From Paenibacillus sp. sptzw28 (GTDB lineage: Bacteria; Bacillota; Bacilli; Paenibacillales; Paenibacillaceae), in contig NZ_CP080545.1 in the NCBI RefSeq assembly GCF_019550795.1, positions 4,250,001-4,314,000 on the forward strand: a stretch of 64,000 bases of DNA, written 5' to 3'. Each line of letters starts with the position of its first letter. Position 1 is the first letter of the stretch. The notes under the pieces were generated by a model. That model made no database searches. It saw nothing but the letters and a program-made list of their open reading frames with translations, and had not been told where the DNA came from. The translations under genes and the position numbers were made by a program. Shown piece after piece: positions 12,818 through 35,096 of the stretch.

Positions 12818-14561
12818 TTAGCGAATGACAAATGTAGAAACCGAGCGATCCAGCTCGCTTACAATGTCCTGCAGATGGATGGCGGAACGTTCTATCTCTT
12901 CCATTAGCGCAAGCTGTTCCTGCGTTGCTGCGGCAACATTCTGGGTGCTGCTTAAATTGTTCTGGGCGGCATGCGCCGACTGCTCCATCGTTGCGCTCAC
13001 TTCCTCTGAGCTGGCAGACATCTCCTCCGTGATCGCAGAGTTGTCATGAATTTGCGCGGCTATGCTCTGGATGGAATCACGGATCAGGGTGAAGCTTTCA
13101 TTCACCTTCTTCATCAACTCCCCGCCCTTGGCGACTTCACCAAGCGTTGCATCCATAACATCCGATGCATGCGCCATTTCGCCCTGCGTCGATGTTACCA
13201 ATTGATTGATGATATCGACCGATTGCAGCGACTGGGCAGCCAATTTGCGGATTTCGCCCGCCACAACGGCAAACCCTCGCCCGTGTTCACCCGCTCTGGC
13301 TGCTTCGATCGAAGCGTTTAGGGACAGAATGCTCGTTTGGTTCGAGAATGATGTAATATTCTCCGCTATTGATCCAATCTCGTTCGACCGCTCGTTCAAT
13401 TTGGTTACGATACCGGCAAGCTTCTCGATGACTACCTTGATTCCTTCCATTTGCGCATCCAGCCGGTCAAGCTCTTCCTGTCCTTGTTCGGCGTCATTCG
13501 AGGTTTTTATGGAGTAATCGGAAATGTTAGAGGTGTTCTCCGCCATCCGTCCGATTCCCACAGCCATCTCATCAATGGCCCGGGCCGATTCTTCCGCTCC
13601 TTTTGCCTGTATCTCAATACCTTCGTTCACCTCAATGATATCCGCTGCAATTTGAGCCGCGGCCGTGGCCGACTGCCTTGAGGAAGTATTCATCTGTTCC
13701 GAAGCGGCGCTTACCTGCAGCGCATTGTCCGAGATTGTAAGAATAAGCTTCCTCACACTGCACTTCATAAGGATAATCGAATGCGCGATCTTGCCGAGTT
13801 CGTCGCCGCTATGCTTAATCGTAGGACAATCTCTTAAGTCACCCACAGAAACGGCGTTGGTCAGCTGGAGCACGTACTTTGCCGTTCTGGATATCTTTCT
13901 GATAATGATAAAGGCGATCAACAGGGTAATCAGCAAACAAACGACAAGGGCGGTAGAACTGGATTTTACGAGTGAATCTTTATTTTTATTAAATACCGAC
14001 GATTTCGCCGGCCGCGTGCTCCTCAAGAATTTCTCCGATAATATTGATGCCTTCCCGCGCTTTACCGAATTGATCCATCAGCTTCTTGTCATAAACCGTA
14101 TTGCTGCCCGTCTCAATTCCTTTGACAGCCAGACCCAGCCAGACCGGAAAATCGGCTCTGAAAGCTGCCGCGATGGATGATATCGAGGTATCGCCGCCCT
14201 TCTTTTTCAGTTCAAGAAGTCCATTATCGCTTATAATGCCGATAGCTTGCTCAATGCGGTCGGATGCCTGCTCTGCATTAGAGGCCATATCCTGCTTCAT
14301 CTGTTTTTTGGTTTCGGCATCCAAGCCGGGGGAACCAACCGCCTGGTACGCCGTAAGCGATTGATACAGGTCTCGGTCCGCGTTCAAGATCAGAGTGTTG
14401 ACCTTGTACGTCGTTTCAAACAATGTCTTAGAAAGTTTAGTGACATCACTCTCGTAAGTATGGGTCCAATACAAAGTGCTGCAAACATACATTAAAATCG
14501 GGAAAGCGACCAGAAGCAGCAGCTTAACACGTAACGACAGGGCGAATTTTCTCTTTGTCAT
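12818..14561 (-). pseudogene. Methyl-accepting chemotaxis protein, frameshifted
   Basis: Two frames together make one chemoreceptor of about 578 residues. The first (14561 to about 14004) gives an N-terminal membrane helix (VKLLLLVAFPILMYVC) and an extracellular helical sensor domain. The second (about 13996 to 12818) gives a second membrane helix ([18 protein letters not shown]), a HAMP domain and the MCP signalling hairpin with its conserved tip ([20 protein letters not shown]). The frames join at 13990-14006, where the first hits TAA at 13989; a single extra base explains the shift. The second frame has no start codon with a ribosome binding site. It is either a recently broken gene or a sequence error. 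The start at 14561 has AAGGA 8 bases upstream. The ligand is unknown. Confidence 0.85.
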
Positions 14562-14699
14562 GACCATCATCCTTTTTTGTTTTTTCTCAATGTCGCTGCC
14601 TCATCAAAAGCTGTTTATTGTTTTATCGTAAAAAATGAGGTGAAAGCGTATAGCAAGATCCAATTATATAATTATTTAGCTTTTCATACCCACAAAATG

Positions 14700-14782: not shown

Positions 14783-15595
14783 TCAGCTTCTCATGGCTAT
14801 CGCATTGCCCGACGTATAACGCCTCAGACCTGCCTGAAAGAACAATACAGCGATTACGCTGAACAGGAGCGTTGTGCCGATTGCGCCGCTGACGAACCAT
14901 GGGTCAAAGTGCTTCAGCAGCCCGATCGGCAGGTAGCTGATGAATCCTGCCGGTACGAGCGAGAACAGCAGCAGCCGGGCAGCACCTCGAAATATGTCCG
15001 CCGGGTACGTCGTCAGCGCGAGAAAGCCGTTCAATACCTGCTGCGCAATCCCTTCCGAGCTGCCGATAAAGAAAGAGCAGCAGCCTGCAATGATCATCAC
15101 TGCCATAAACAGCGCGCCGCTTATCAACAGACCGAAGAGGTACAGAACTGCGCCGGTAAGCGAATGATCCCCAACCCACAAATAGACAGCGATTCCGAAA
15201 GCGAAATCGCCGATAGCCGTCACTGACATCCGGCTTGCGATGACATGCAGCAGTACCGGCTTTGGCTGCGACAGATAAACGTCAAGCTGGCCCCCGGCAA
15301 CGATGCCCGCGATCCGGTGGAAATTGCCGAACAGTATGTTCGCCCAGCCGAAGCCGCCTGCGCCGAGCGCCCACAGCATCATCACATCATGCAGTCCCCA
15401 GCCGTTCACCAATGGAAACCGGTTAAAGAAGAGGCTCCAAAAAAACAGCCACATGAAATTGTTAAGGAACATCATGCCAGCCATCAGCAAAAAGCTTGCC
15501 CGGTATTCCATCGCGGAGGACAGGTTGACCTTCCAACAAGTAGCCAGAAATCGCAAAATCGCCGTCAGCTTCGCTGCAGCGCCTATACGCTGCAT
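14783..15595 (-). CDS. ABC-2 family permease (second subunit)
   Basis: A 270-residue ABC-2 type permease with six predicted membrane helices, matching the paired permeases encoded with NatA-like ATPases (ABC2_membrane_6 / DUF990 style). The stretch FGNFHRIAGIVAGGQLDVYL, followed by SQPKPVL, is the conserved cytoplasmic coupling loop of this family (compare NGDIAIRLIRPLS in its partner). The frame opens at 15613, but GGAGG lies 5 bases before the ATG at 15595, 1 base after the stop of the partner. The substrate is unknown; relatives have been linked to export of small hydrophobic or cationic compounds. Confidence 0.88.
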   Translation of the reverse strand: MQRIGAAAKLTAILRFLATCWKVNLSSAMEYRASFLLMAGMMFLNNFMWLFFWSLFFNRFPLVNGWGLHDVMMLWALGAGGFGWANILFGNFHRIAGIVAGGQLDVYLSQPKPVLLHVIASRMSVTAIGDFAFGIAVYLWVGDHSLTGAVLYLFGLLISGALFMAVMIIAGCCSFFIGSSEGIAQQVLNGFLALTTYPADIFRGAARLLLFSLVPAGFISYLPIGLLKHFDPWFVSGAIGTTLLFSVIAVLFFQAGLRRYTSGNAIAMRS

Positions 15596-15596
15596 A

Positions 15597-16415
15597 TTAT
15601 CCTCCATTGACATGAAGCTTCGCCACTCCTCTCCGGTAAATCAGCACTACTGCCGCTGCCATAACGGCAATCCATGCCGCTTGAACGGCAAATTGAGGCA
15701 TCAGCTGCGAGCTTTGAAAATTAACCGCCGTCCGGGCGGGATAATAGAGCACTGCCTGAAACGGCAGCCAGGCGCATATCCGCTGCAGCCATTCAGGCAT
15801 TAAATCGATCGGCAGCAGCATCCCGCCAACCGTGAACTGGAGCTTCTGGAGTACGAATTCCATGCCGCGTGTCTCCTCGACCCAGAACGCGGTGAGCGCT
15901 ACCGCCGCGTTCAGCAGAAATGCCAGGGTCAACGCCCCGATGCTGAGCCCTAGCAAACCAAGCCATCCGAGCCCGAATGCCGGTGCGCCGACAAACGCCC
16001 AGGCAATTGCGCTTCCCGCCGCGAGATGGATAACGAACCGAAACGCCGCTTCCGCCATATAAGAGACGTAATGGAAGCCGACGTATGACAACGGCCGGAT
16101 AAGCCGGATTGCAATATCGCCGTTCTTCACCTCTTCTTCGATCCGGACGCATAGGGCCGGACCCGCCATCGTAAGCGCCTCTGTAAACACGAGATACCAG
16201 ACGATTTGCTTAAGCGTAAACCCGGAGATGACCCGCCCGCTGTCGCCGTCATAAGCAGCCGACCACAGCTGGATGAAAACATACAGAATTAACAGCAGGA
16301 ACGCTGCCCGCATTATAAAATCCGTCTTGTACGCCAACTGCTGGCGAACCGTGATATGCGCCACAGCCTCGATTTTGCGGCCCTTTGCCGACCATTTCAG
16401 CAGCCAACCGTTCAT
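15597..16415 (-). CDS. ABC-2 family permease (first subunit)
   Basis: A 272-residue six-helix ABC-2 permease, homologous in layout to the next gene: cytoplasmic N-terminus, helix pairs at about 35-55 and 65-85, the EEEVKNGDIAIRLIRPLSYV coupling loop, then four further helices. The ATG has GGAGG 7 bases upstream and overlaps the ATPase stop by 4 bases (ATGA), indicating translational coupling. The two permeases and the ATPase probably form a heterodimeric exporter. Confidence 0.88.
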   Translation of the reverse strand: MNGWLLKWSAKGRKIEAVAHITVRQQLAYKTDFIMRAAFLLLILYVFIQLWSAAYDGDSGRVISGFTLKQIVWYLVFTEALTMAGPALCVRIEEEVKNGDIAIRLIRPLSYVGFHYVSYMAEAAFRFVIHLAAGSAIAWAFVGAPAFGLGWLGLLGLSIGALTLAFLLNAAVALTAFWVEETRGMEFVLQKLQFTVGGMLLPIDLMPEWLQRICAWLPFQAVLYYPARTAVNFQSSQLMPQFAVQAAWIAVMAAAVVLIYRRGVAKLHVNGG

Positions 16416-17491
16416 ATGTCGGCCTCCTTCGCATGGGCGCCCGTTAATGCATAAACGCCCTTATCAACATGCTGGCTCAGCGGCTCTGTGCCGTCACGGC
16501 GCATGCCGTATATATGTTTAATGATCTCTTCGAGCGGCGGGTCTTCAATCGTTACGTCTTCAATCCTTACCTGTGTAAGCAGCGCGCTGAGCACTGTTTC
16601 GATATCCGTTTGCGTCAAATCCACCGAAAGCTTCAGACGGCGTCCCTCCGCTTGTATAATCCCGGTTCCCGTAATTTGCGGCTCCCCCGTGTTCGTGTTT
16701 GCTTCGGCAAGCGTCAGCGCAATCGTCTTCCTGCTCAGCACATCACGTTTTAAGACGTCTATAGGAGCATCCAGTAAAATGCCGCCATGATGAATGACGA
16801 CCGCCCGTTCGCAAAGCTCTTCCACGTCGCCCGCGTCATGCGAGGTTAAGAAAACGGTCGTTCCCTCAGCGCGGTTTAAGTCGCGGATCAGCTCGCGGAT
16901 GCGCTGTTTGACCACAACATCCAGACCAATCGTCGGCTCATCAAGAAACAGAAGCTGCGGCCGATGAAGGAACGATACGGCGATCTCGCAGCGCATTCTC
17001 TCCCCGAGCGACAGCTTCCGGACAGGAGTATGCAGGTATGGGCCGAGCTCGAACCGCTCGATGAGATCATCGCGTCTGGCGATATAGTCTGCACGCTTGA
17101 GCTCATAGATACGGCTGATCAGGTCAAATGTATCGATGGGGGGCAGATGATACCAAAGCTGCGACTTTTGACCGAATACGGCACCGATTCGGAAGGCCAG
17201 CTTAGTTCTGTCACGCCACGGGGTCAGCCCGAGTACCTGCGCACTGCCCGATGTCGGATGGAGGATTCCGGTCAGCATCTTAATCGTCGTCGATTTACCG
17301 GCCCCGTTCGGTCCGAGGAACGCTACCATCTCCCCGGCGTCAACGGTTAAATCAATGCCGTGAACAGCAAGCTTCTCCTCCCATTCCGGTCTAAGCAGAG
17401 CTCGGAAGCTGCCCGATAACCCCGCCTCCTTGCGCTTAACCCGGAAGCTTTTACATAAACCGCTTGTCTGCAATGCAATCATTCCGATCAT
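16412..17491 (-). CDS. ABC-2 exporter ATPase (NatA-like)
   Basis: A 359-residue ABC ATPase with Walker A GPNGAGKST, Q-loop FGQKSQLWYHLPP, signature LSLGERMRCE, Walker B LLFLDEPTIGLD and H-loop TSHD. The LSLGERMRCE signature and the FGQKSQLW Q-loop are characteristic of the DUF990-type exporters. A C-terminal regulatory domain of about 110 residues (RKTIALTLAEAN to KHIYGM) follows. The frame opens at 17527 inside the leader terminator, so I use the ATG at 17491 (GAGG about 4 bases upstream); 17482 is an alternative. A ykkC-type leader precedes it, so transcription of all three exporter genes is probably controlled by a ligand. Confidence 0.92.
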   Translation of the reverse strand: MIGMIALQTSGLCKSFRVKRKEAGLSGSFRALLRPEWEEKLAVHGIDLTVDAGEMVAFLGPNGAGKSTTIKMLTGILHPTSGSAQVLGLTPWRDRTKLAFRIGAVFGQKSQLWYHLPPIDTFDLISRIYELKRADYIARRDDLIERFELGPYLHTPVRKLSLGERMRCEIAVSFLHRPQLLFLDEPTIGLDVVVKQRIRELIRDLNRAEGTTVFLTSHDAGDVEELCERAVVIHHGGILLDAPIDVLKRDVLSRKTIALTLAEANTNTGEPQITGTGIIQAEGRRLKLSVDLTQTDIETVLSALLTQVRIEDVTIEDPPLEEIIKHIYGMRRDGTEPLSQHVDKGVYALTGAHAKEADI

Positions 17492-17524
17492 GTCCCCTCT
17501 TGCGGTTGCTCTGCCATGGTAAAG

Positions 17525-17670
17525 CAAAGAAGACCTCCAGCGAGCGCCGCCTGATTGTAAGGCGGAACTTGCCGAAGGTCTTTTAATCCCTACGGTGTAG
17601 CGTGACTTATTGTCATTTGCCGGTTTCGCTTGGTTCGCCGTTAGCGGATCCCTAGAAACCCTTCCGTTTG
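17525..17670 (-). ncRNA. ykkC-family riboswitch, ppGpp-like subtype, with terminator
   Basis: The minus strand between the promoter and the ABC-2 ATPase gene carries, in order, CTAGGGATCC (17646-17655), ACCAAGCG (17627-17634), ACACCGTAGGGAT (17586-17598), AAAAGACC (17577-17584) and GGCAAGTT (17566-17573). This order matches ykkC RNAs. The GATCC, ACCAAGCG and GACC..GGCAAGTT elements fit subtype 2a (ppGpp) better than the guanidine-I class, which has CTGGTCCGAGAG and AAAAGCCCGGGAG. The AAAGACC segment can instead pair with GGAGGTCTT (17529-17537) to form a terminator ending TTCTTT, with inner stem CCGCC/GGCGG. This suggests an ON switch in which ligand binding blocks termination. The ligand call is by pattern only. 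Confidence 0.82.
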
Positions 17671-17677
17671 ATGTAAC

Positions 17678-17706
17678 ATATTATCATCGGAATCGCAGGC
17701 TGGCAA
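17678..17706 (-). promoter_or_regulatory. SigA promoter of the ABC-2 exporter operon
   Basis: On the minus strand TTGCCA (17701-17706) and TAATAT (17678-17683) are separated by exactly 17 bases, immediately upstream of the riboswitch. Confidence 0.8.
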
Positions 17707-17730
17707 GACTTTTTGTTGTCACGCTTAAGC

Positions 17731-17973
17731 CTATGCAGTAAACAATAAATCTTCCATCATCGTCAGCAGCCTGTACTTCATCTGCTGAAGCTTCTCAATG
17801 GCCCGTTCCAGGCAGGCTTCGTTCTCTATATGTTTCATCTTGGTTTCAATTCTGCGGTATGCCTGATGCATCTCGACGATTTCATCCGATTTTATCATAT
17901 TCCGGTCGTACAGCCGTACACGGTTCAGCAGGTCGCCCGTTGCGGCAAACAAATGTTCAAAATTGTTATTCAT
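17731..17973 (-). CDS. Small helical protein, unknown function
   Basis: I do not recognise this 80-residue protein. It is predicted almost wholly helical, with amphipathic heptads (NNFEHLFAATGDLLNRVRLY and IETKMKHIENEACLERAIEK) and no signal peptide. It may be a helical-hairpin protein similar in shape to small Bacillales regulators. The frame opens at 17994; AGAGG 9 bases before the ATG at 17973 supports the shorter start. It sits alone between pyrE and the riboswitch promoter, with no clear terminator after it. Confidence 0.6.
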   Translation of the reverse strand: MNNNFEHLFAATGDLLNRVRLYDRNMIKSDEIVEMHQAYRRIETKMKHIENEACLERAIEKLQQMKYRLLTMMEDLLFTA

Positions 17974-18076
17974 GGTCTTCAACCTCTCTCTCACTCTCTT
18001 ATTCTCTCTGTAGGATAAAGCAGTTTATGCTGCAGAATTGTAGCTTATTACCCCAAGAGCGAGTGATTGAAACAAA

Positions 18077-25462: not shown

Positions 25463-27030
<1,568 letters not shown>

Positions 27031-27144
27031 CGTACTTTCTCGTGAATCGGGCGGTTCGCTCCCGGACTAGTGCCGCCTATGCCCAAGGAGCAAGCGTCAG
27101 TAAGTCCCGTCGACCGTTCGAATTCAACTATTCACGCTACCTTG

Positions 27145-27176
27145 ACAGCCTCTCTGGACTGAATTAAAGGTACTGC
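27145..27176 (-). promoter_or_regulatory. PyrR-binding loop (anti-antiterminator)
   Basis: On the minus strand AGTCCAGAGAGGCT (27147-27160) matches the conserved PyrR recognition loop, flanked by CAG/CTG and CCTT/AAGG pairing. It lies about 30 bases after the -10 box. This is the only such site in the operon. Confidence 0.9.
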
Positions 27177-34699: not shown

Positions 34700-35080
34700 A
34701 AAAACAAAAAAAGCCCCGTCCCAATAAAGGGACGAGGGCATGCTCGCGTTACCACCCTTGTTCCATACATAATGATGCGGCGGACGCACCTGTAAATACA
34801 GGCTGTACCACTGCGCCATCCTGCATGGCACCTTAGTCACGGACAGTCAATATCCGCGTTCCGGGTAACGGTGGACTTCCGGCAGCGCTTAGTCGCCATC
34901 GATACGCCTCTCATAGAGATTGCCCGATTACTCCGGCTCTCTAATACTGCCGCATCCATGCCCTTTCGGCACCGCTTCTCGGAGAGGATATTCCGACATT
35001 GTCCGCACACCGGCTTTCAGCAAATCGCCGGCTCTCTGTGGTACTGACACATGACGTACTCGTTCTCGTCAACGAAGTTA
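34700..35080 (-). ncRNA. Isoleucine T-box leader
   Basis: Upstream of ileS the minus strand carries a T-box: the conserved AGGGTGGTAACGCG (34745-34758), a terminator (GCCCTCGTCCC / GGGACGGGGC, then seven T; about 34705-34740), the AGAGAGCCGG and GCTGAAAGCCGG Stem I elements, and a specifier loop GAATATCC (34986-34993) whose ATC codon reads isoleucine. The GAGTACG on the opposite side is the S-turn partner. Uncharged tRNA-Ile would stabilise the antiterminator and allow ileS transcription. Confidence 0.95.
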
Positions 35081-35096
35081 ATCAATGATTAATACA

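Follow-up and report, generated by a model that had tools for sequence, protein, structure and literature searches.

Exporter operon and its neighborhood

The window, which is the whole 64,000-nucleotide stretch of Paenibacillus sp. sptzw28 DNA that was analyzed, carries on its minus strand three transport genes preceded by a structured leader. The first gene encodes an ABC ATPase (PF00005, 16412–17491), whose start is an ATG at 17491 or 17482 in an open frame beginning with TTG at 17527. It is followed by two genes assigned by Pfam to ABC2_membrane_6 (PF06182), permease 1 (15597–16415) and permease 2 (14783–15613). PF06182 is presumably the family formerly called DUF990. From these matches the genes downstream of the RNA are identified as a predicted three-gene exporter of the PF06182 type, an ABC ATPase and two permeases encoded in one operon. 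At E ≤ 1 no solved structure matched permease 2 and one, at E 0.8, matched permease 1.

A scan of the genome collection with the ATPase gave 232 relatives, and the analysis continued with the best 80. These come mainly from Paenibacillus and Cohnella, with single loci from Tumebacillus, Thermobacillus, Gordonibacillus, Gorillibacterium and Lihuaxuella, and all three exporter genes are matched on the same strand in every one of the 80 loci. Clustering of frames of at least 110 amino acids over about 4 kb on each side revealed no fourth gene constant across the 80 loci. Besides out-of-frame readings of the exporter genes, the most frequent clusters occur in at most 20 of 80 loci, those with 20 being the pyr genes.

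The genes upstream in the window are a phosphoribosyltransferase (PF00156, PyrE-type), OMP decarboxylase and a carbamoyl-phosphate synthase frame, which together represent a pyr operon. As a PyrE match is found in 20 of the 80 relatives' loci, it is the exporter that the RNA accompanies; a regulatory tie to the neighboring pyr operon was rejected on the same count.

A small frame of about 80 residues lies between pyrE and the leader (17731–17994, minus strand); it is matched in 14 of the 80 loci and has no Pfam family. A methyl-accepting chemotaxis protein follows the exporter genes as two overlapping frames of 193 and 402 amino acids (12818–14570, minus strand), with PF00015 in the 402-residue frame. 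Further upstream on the same strand are a PyrR binding site (26996–27174, 55.3 bits against a cut-off of 54) and a T-box leader (34725–35081, 107.1 bits in Rfam).

The leader RNA and its aptamer

The leader is of the ykkC type and extends on the minus strand from about 17672 to 17521, with a full aptamer bearing an extra P0 helix, then a terminator, and then the exporter. The initial annotation had proposed a TTGCCA-N17-TAATAT promoter, and motif search indeed finds the −35-like hexamer TTGCCA at 17701–17706 and the −10 hexamer TAATAT at 17678–17683 on the minus strand. The pair (17706–17678) matches at 9 of 12 positions and is the one promoter-like pair found in 17400–17800, versus a mean of 0.3 in shuffles. 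Any of six −10-like hexamers lies at most 25 bases before the aptamer, near the same place, in 74 of 78 leaders, a count that carries no chance control. The transcript would start near 17672. The conserved ykkC blocks named in the same annotation, GATCC, ACCAAGCG, AAAAGACC and GGCAAGTT, were all located on the minus strand.

The 2a-type aptamer of the ykkC class, measured from P0 to P0, occupies 17563–17668 as delimited by models, covariation and folding. Folded alone and unconstrained, the segment 17672–17563 forms P0, P1 with its inner stems, P2 and P3 at −28.5 kcal/mol, and it has the ykkC P1-P2-P3 fold with the conserved CUAGGG, AAGC, ACACC and AAAAG blocks. P0, which forms in this free fold, pairs CGGAA (17662–17666) with TTCCG (17563–17567), the latter being also part of the terminator stem; folding and covariation agree on both strands, and 98% of the P0 cells are paired over 41 sequences. 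P3 (17572–17595) has an AAAAG loop and its 3′ part is free of the PRPP-type G96 signature. Over 41 diverse leaders 14 pairs are changed on both sides, a number reached in 0 of 500 shuffles, and shifting the partner strand cuts pairing from 90% to at most 50%. The leader RNA itself is confirmed as real and above chance.

Pocket residues are numbered after Knappenberger et al. (PMC6031431) and were mapped onto the window RNA in this analysis. A5 corresponds to 17662 and G6 to the adjacent 17661, the G48-C49 equivalents are placed by sequence at 17628–17629, and the ACACC segment at 17594–17598 is equivalent, by sequence and folding, to A74, C75, A76, C77 and C78. All residues named for ppGpp (A5, G6, G48, C49 and C75) are kept in the window RNA. 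The C75 equivalent would pair with the guanine of ppGpp, and the change C75U is reported to turn a ppGpp aptamer toward adenine ligands (PMC6031431). This residue, C17597 in the window, is a cytosine in 78 of 78 leaders, within ACACC in 75 and ACAGC in 3. The leaders of loci L052, L055 and L058 have a long insert within P3 along with ACAGC replacing ACACC. In the L055 leader the P1 pairing is lost in a manual reading, and it is the sole relative that scores slightly better with the 2b model.

The terminator

A terminator hairpin at 17531–17581 on the minus strand, identified by folding and conservation, is mutually exclusive with P0 and P3 and is followed by the T-rich tail TCTTTGCTTT at 17521–17530, an imperfect T-tract. 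The initial annotation was right that a competing terminator overlaps AAAGACC: the stem 17581–17531 covers this block as well as the 3′ strands of P0 and P3. A hairpin of this kind, linking the AGACC block to the T-run, is found in 78 of 78 leaders, compared with 56 of 390 shuffled downstream sequences. A possible translational control would involve a GGAGG motif contained in the terminator together with the TTG at 17527. The best structure of the full leader contains the terminator, at −56.0 kcal/mol versus −36.8 kcal/mol when the aptamer is kept; because the aptamer-retained structure is weaker by 19 kcal/mol, switching must be kinetic.

The full leader folds better than shuffles (z −3.8), mainly through the terminator. 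This would suit a conserved leader that acts via the terminator alone or via a protein, with the aptamer as a relic, as would L055 with its missing P1. The covariation in P1 and the invariance of the pocket residues over 41 diverse sequences speak against such a relic, which is highly unlikely.

Models of the ykkC subtypes

At gathering scores Rfam calls tRNAs, the T-box and the PyrR site in the window and nothing at this leader, and it matches 0 of 16 relatives' loci, each of which bears the same leader. A permissive search gives the guanidine-I family RF00442 as the best match at the leader, with 16.9 bits against a gathering cut-off of 63; the other match there is a CRISPR repeat model on the plus strand (14.1 bits, E 8.3). 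In six relatives' loci searched in the same permissive manner RF00442 is listed in three, and these scores of 31.9 to 36.6 bits fall under those of the 2a-context RNAs listed at E ≤ 1e-6.

Subtype models were built from RNAs of the phylum. A natA-based model, R1, matched 165 of 299 genomes at E ≤ 0.01; for 106 fetched loci, among them that of the window, the downstream genes were read, and 24 of their proteins were checked in Pfam. Classes were defined by gene context. The amino-acid and transport contexts comprise ilvE, ilvB, ilvC, ilvD, leuA-like genes, glutamate synthase, binding proteins, symporters and permeases, and the purine contexts comprise purB, purC, purE, purL, purK, xanthine/uracil permeases, PnrA-like proteins, one glyA and one fhs. 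The 2a label stands for any non-purine context, including the weak L090, L096 and L163 and the natA locus L087. For the gene at L097, taken as gltS, Pfam gave no hit; this gene and those of the unscanned loci were identified by inspection or from their blastp cluster. The family at L086, glutamine amidotransferase class II, is consistent with glutamate synthase, short of proof. Loci L156, L180, L185 and L188, whose orientation was not assigned, were left out, and the 100-source set excludes L083 and L156, L174, L177, L180, L183, L185, L186, L188, L189 and L190. One of two matches at L131 was used for the score difference. L213, grouped as guanidine, scores PRPP-like (−20.0), and its label is therefore probably wrong.

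Two models were trained on alignments made with R1: R2, the 2a model, on 20 RNAs that precede amino-acid or transport genes in other genomes, natA excluded, and R3, the PRPP (2b) model, on 20 RNAs from purine contexts. In the 6.1 Mb genome the window RNA is the only match to R2 at E ≤ 1 (73.5 bits, E 2.9e-14). Its R3 score is 60.9, a difference of +12.6, where model scores are rough when close. This difference ranges from −27.4 to −13.7 in 38 of 38 held-out purine-context loci and from −4.1 to +22.8 in 21 held-out other loci, four of which fall below zero (−0.2 to −4.1). Among the aptamers of 78 relatives it is positive in 77 and negative in L055 (−2.7). When R2 is taken by itself, the window's 73.5 bits are exceeded by 18 of the 38 held-out loci with purine contexts, and the RNA is therefore divergent from both classes, with only the difference favoring 2a. 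The choice of 2a over guanidine-I in the initial annotation agrees with the models, at 73.5 bits for 2a, 60.9 for PRPP/2b and 16.9 for the Rfam guanidine-I model, which is of a different kind and whose score is on another footing than R2 and R3; the comparison covers these three classes.

Sequence signatures and alternative ligands

Signatures were counted in 78 leaders (77 of the best 80 of the 232 relatives, plus the window), 41 2a-context RNAs and 59 purine-context RNAs. The 2a-type 3′ tail of P0 is present in 78 of 78 leaders, 41 of 41 2a-context RNAs and 2 of 59 purine-context RNAs, and ACACCGT in 70 of 78, 41 of 41 and 11 of 59, correspondingly. The GTTT[C/T] tail has the opposite distribution (0/78, 0/41 and 57/59), as does the G96-type tail signature of 2b (0/78, 0/41 and 56/59), for which the exact alignment of position 96 is ambiguous. 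The window RNA has the 2a tail signatures and lacks those of 2b; ACCAAGCG, one of the cues initially taken for 2a, is common to 2a and 2b.

A PRPP riboswitch of subtype 2b has the same fold. The pyr operon that the exporter closely follows encodes a PyrE-type phosphoribosyltransferase, an enzyme that uses PRPP, and PRPP could therefore be the signal. The PF00156 protein, OMP decarboxylase and the carbamoyl-phosphate synthase frame are in keeping with this, as is PyrE in 20 of 80 loci. However, the 2b model is 12.6 bits worse than that of 2a, and both tails that mark the purine-context RNAs (56 and 57 of 59) are absent from all 78 leaders. In the remaining 60 of 80 loci PyrE is unmatched within the fetched flank, which spans up to 4 kb and is shortened by a contig end in a few cases, and at least 58 of them keep the RNA. 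The purine genes expected of 2b are also missing, with ABC exporter genes downstream and pyrimidine genes upstream. A PRPP riboswitch is therefore very improbable on these counts.

A guanidine-I riboswitch driving a guanidine exporter would account for RF00442 as the best Rfam match, and transporters are known guanidine-I targets (PMC7266159). Its score is, however, far under the 63-bit cut-off, the P0 helix is present, and position 49 is C17628, not A. Cytosine occupies this position in 78 of 78 leaders and the pyrimidine pattern fits 39 of 41 2a-context RNAs; since a pyrimidine at 49 argues against the guanidine-I type (PMC6031431), the leader is not of that type. Moreover, the genome has a separate guanidine-I element, which scores 66.1 bits with Rfam and only 16.6 with R2. 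The chance that the leader senses guanidine is close to negligible, and both the PRPP and the guanidine readings were rejected by the models and the residue counts. The separate element is located at G000:C1:222133-222281 (locus L001) and lies above the Rfam cut-off.

The leaders have features of their own within P1. The inner stem GAACC is found in 77 of 78 leaders and in none of the 41 2a-context or 59 purine-context RNAs, and CTAGGGAT in 67 of 78, 1 of 41 and 2 of 59. The GATCC block, taken initially as a cue for 2a, is by these counts a mark of the lineage instead. AAG or AAA precedes the P0 3′ strand in 78 of 78 leaders versus 15 of 41 2a-context RNAs. An A in place of G104 before P0 could suggest a lost contact, but the same A is found in those 15 RNAs, some of them ilvE leaders. 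The inner stem of P1 is P2b, which, once the aptamer has folded, receives purines from its final hairpin (PMC10687018), so a change there probably touches docking rather than the ligand. The altered stem, lying in a region that takes part in the fold, counts against the 2a assignment.

A ykkC variant with a 2a-like pocket that senses another ligand, either of the nucleoside diphosphate class 2c or new, would be in line with the inner stem changed in 77 of 78 leaders and with the RF00442 scores of three relatives, which lie below the listed 2a-context RNAs. Against this stand the five ppGpp pocket residues kept in the window and the invariant C75, whose replacement by U redirects the aptamer to adenine ligands. 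Riboswitches of class 2c were described before NUDIX and HAD hydrolases (PMC7266159), and by Pfam neither kind of gene follows the window RNA. A different ligand thus appears improbable, and the models and signatures, as judged from sequence, give good support for placing the window RNA in the (p)ppGpp class, subtype 2a.

Distribution

Among the best 80 of the 232 relatives the RNA is present upstream of the ATPase in 78, within about 350 bases in 77 and about 800 bases up in L076; no aptamer was found upstream of the ATPase in L048 and L082. In the family, Paenibacillaceae judging from the named relatives, 80 of 197 genomes match R1 at E ≤ 0.001 and 49, the window's own included, score at least 82 bits; as 148 of the 197 have no strong match, the element is not a general feature of this family. 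Of 20 R1 sites fetched, 17 lead into this ATPase, namely all 16 with at least 82 bits and one with 52 bits; it does not follow the three weaker sites.

Locus L242 (L087), from a genome outside this family, has the same three-gene exporter behind a 2a RNA, with an R2 minus R3 difference of +15.5. Its ATPase is 53% identical to that of the window and both of its permeases are PF06182 proteins. A Paenibacillaceae-centered branch, lying under the Rfam cut-off and having its own inner-stem sequence, is added here to the known natA group.

Two further RNAs were noted by eye. L243 (about 90–240) contains an aptamer copy whose 5′ half is poorly conserved and whose position 49 is A, before an MFS-transporter-like frame. 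L244 (about 90–225), from the window's family, contains a PRPP-like ykkC RNA before xanthine phosphoribosyltransferase- and xanthine permease-like frames.

Proposed mechanism and significance

The leader is likely a transcription-terminating ON riboswitch of ykkC subtype 2a that senses (p)ppGpp and controls the three-gene ABC-2 exporter. Computation shows the fold with P0, a 2a-type pocket and tail, a terminator sharing the P0 and P3 3′ strands, and conservation together with the exporter. The ligand, the direction of switching and the physiology would follow those of the riboswitch class. In fed cells the nascent RNA would refold into the terminator 17581–17531 and transcription would stop. 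When charged amino acids are exhausted, RelA-type enzymes would make (p)ppGpp; the genome encodes three RelA_SpoT domains. The alarmone would bind the nascent aptamer, its guanine pairing with C17597, while G17661, G17629 and P0 would hold the ligand. P0 and P3 would be locked against the terminator, and RNA polymerase would continue into the genes for the ATPase and the permeases. Because its leader resembles a known (p)ppGpp sensor, the exporter is probably turned on when cells starve.

The suggestion that this ties an exporter to the stringent response has support as to the riboswitch class; it is not new as a pairing, since a paper of 2018 already lists the RNAs of natA transporters under subtype 2a, next to those of glutamate synthase and branched-chain amino acid genes (PMC5912903). 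The pairing of an alarmone RNA with an exporter, already known in distant bacteria, is here traced through many Paenibacillus relatives. Direct alarmone sensing by RNA is thereby likely extended to an exporter of many Paenibacillus and Cohnella species that Rfam leaves unflagged, and the switch hints at when the exporter is needed, namely in amino-acid shortage.

A more speculative and rather doubtful proposal is that the Paenibacillaceae-centered exporter leaders form a separate 2a branch tuned to pppGpp over ppGpp, with the docking site in the P1 inner stem re-made and the exporter acting late in the stringent response, as an output specific to pppGpp. Such tuning is reported for a single clostridial natA aptamer (PMC12373219). 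About 78 homologues are on offer for finding the residues that set the preference for pppGpp or ppGpp.

Comparison with known systems

The exporter resembles the ethyl viologen exporter family (TC 3.A.1.141, DUF990), which has an ATPase and membrane proteins of the same kind; two Synechocystis proteins, EvrA and EvrC, are tabulated under ethyl viologen export (PMC5417439). The RNA shares its architecture with P0 with the PRPP riboswitches of subtype 2b, but their extra G (G96), GUUU(C/U) tail and purine genes are absent at the window RNA.

The ppGpp riboswitches of D. hafniense and T. oceani belong to the same aptamer class, and that of D. hafniense regulates transcription termination (PMC12373219, PMC10112252). 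Unlike the window RNA, which precedes an exporter, they precede ilvE; the likeness is one of class. Out of 30 predicted alarmone riboswitches, 25 bound in vitro, one with higher affinity for pppGpp, and no binding was seen for five (PMC10112252).

A search by title and abstract of the literature on Paenibacillus ppGpp riboswitches and on ykkC-natA, in which subscription journals are thinly covered, returned nothing on this branch. A natA aptamer from Clostridiales is reported to bind (p)ppGpp with an about 10-fold preference for pppGpp (PMC12373219, citing Jagodnik 2023) and was used in a B. subtilis reporter in a 2025 paper (PMC12373219). The window RNA is like the natA group of ykkC 2a in its fold, P0 helix, pocket residues, terminator logic and the ABC ATPase gene downstream. 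It differs in that its lineage has GAACC and CTAGGGAT in the inner stem of P1, always has AAG or AAA before the P0 3′ strand, and stays under the Rfam cut-off. With the natA-group member L242 it shares the exporter itself, an ATPase with two PF06182 permeases.
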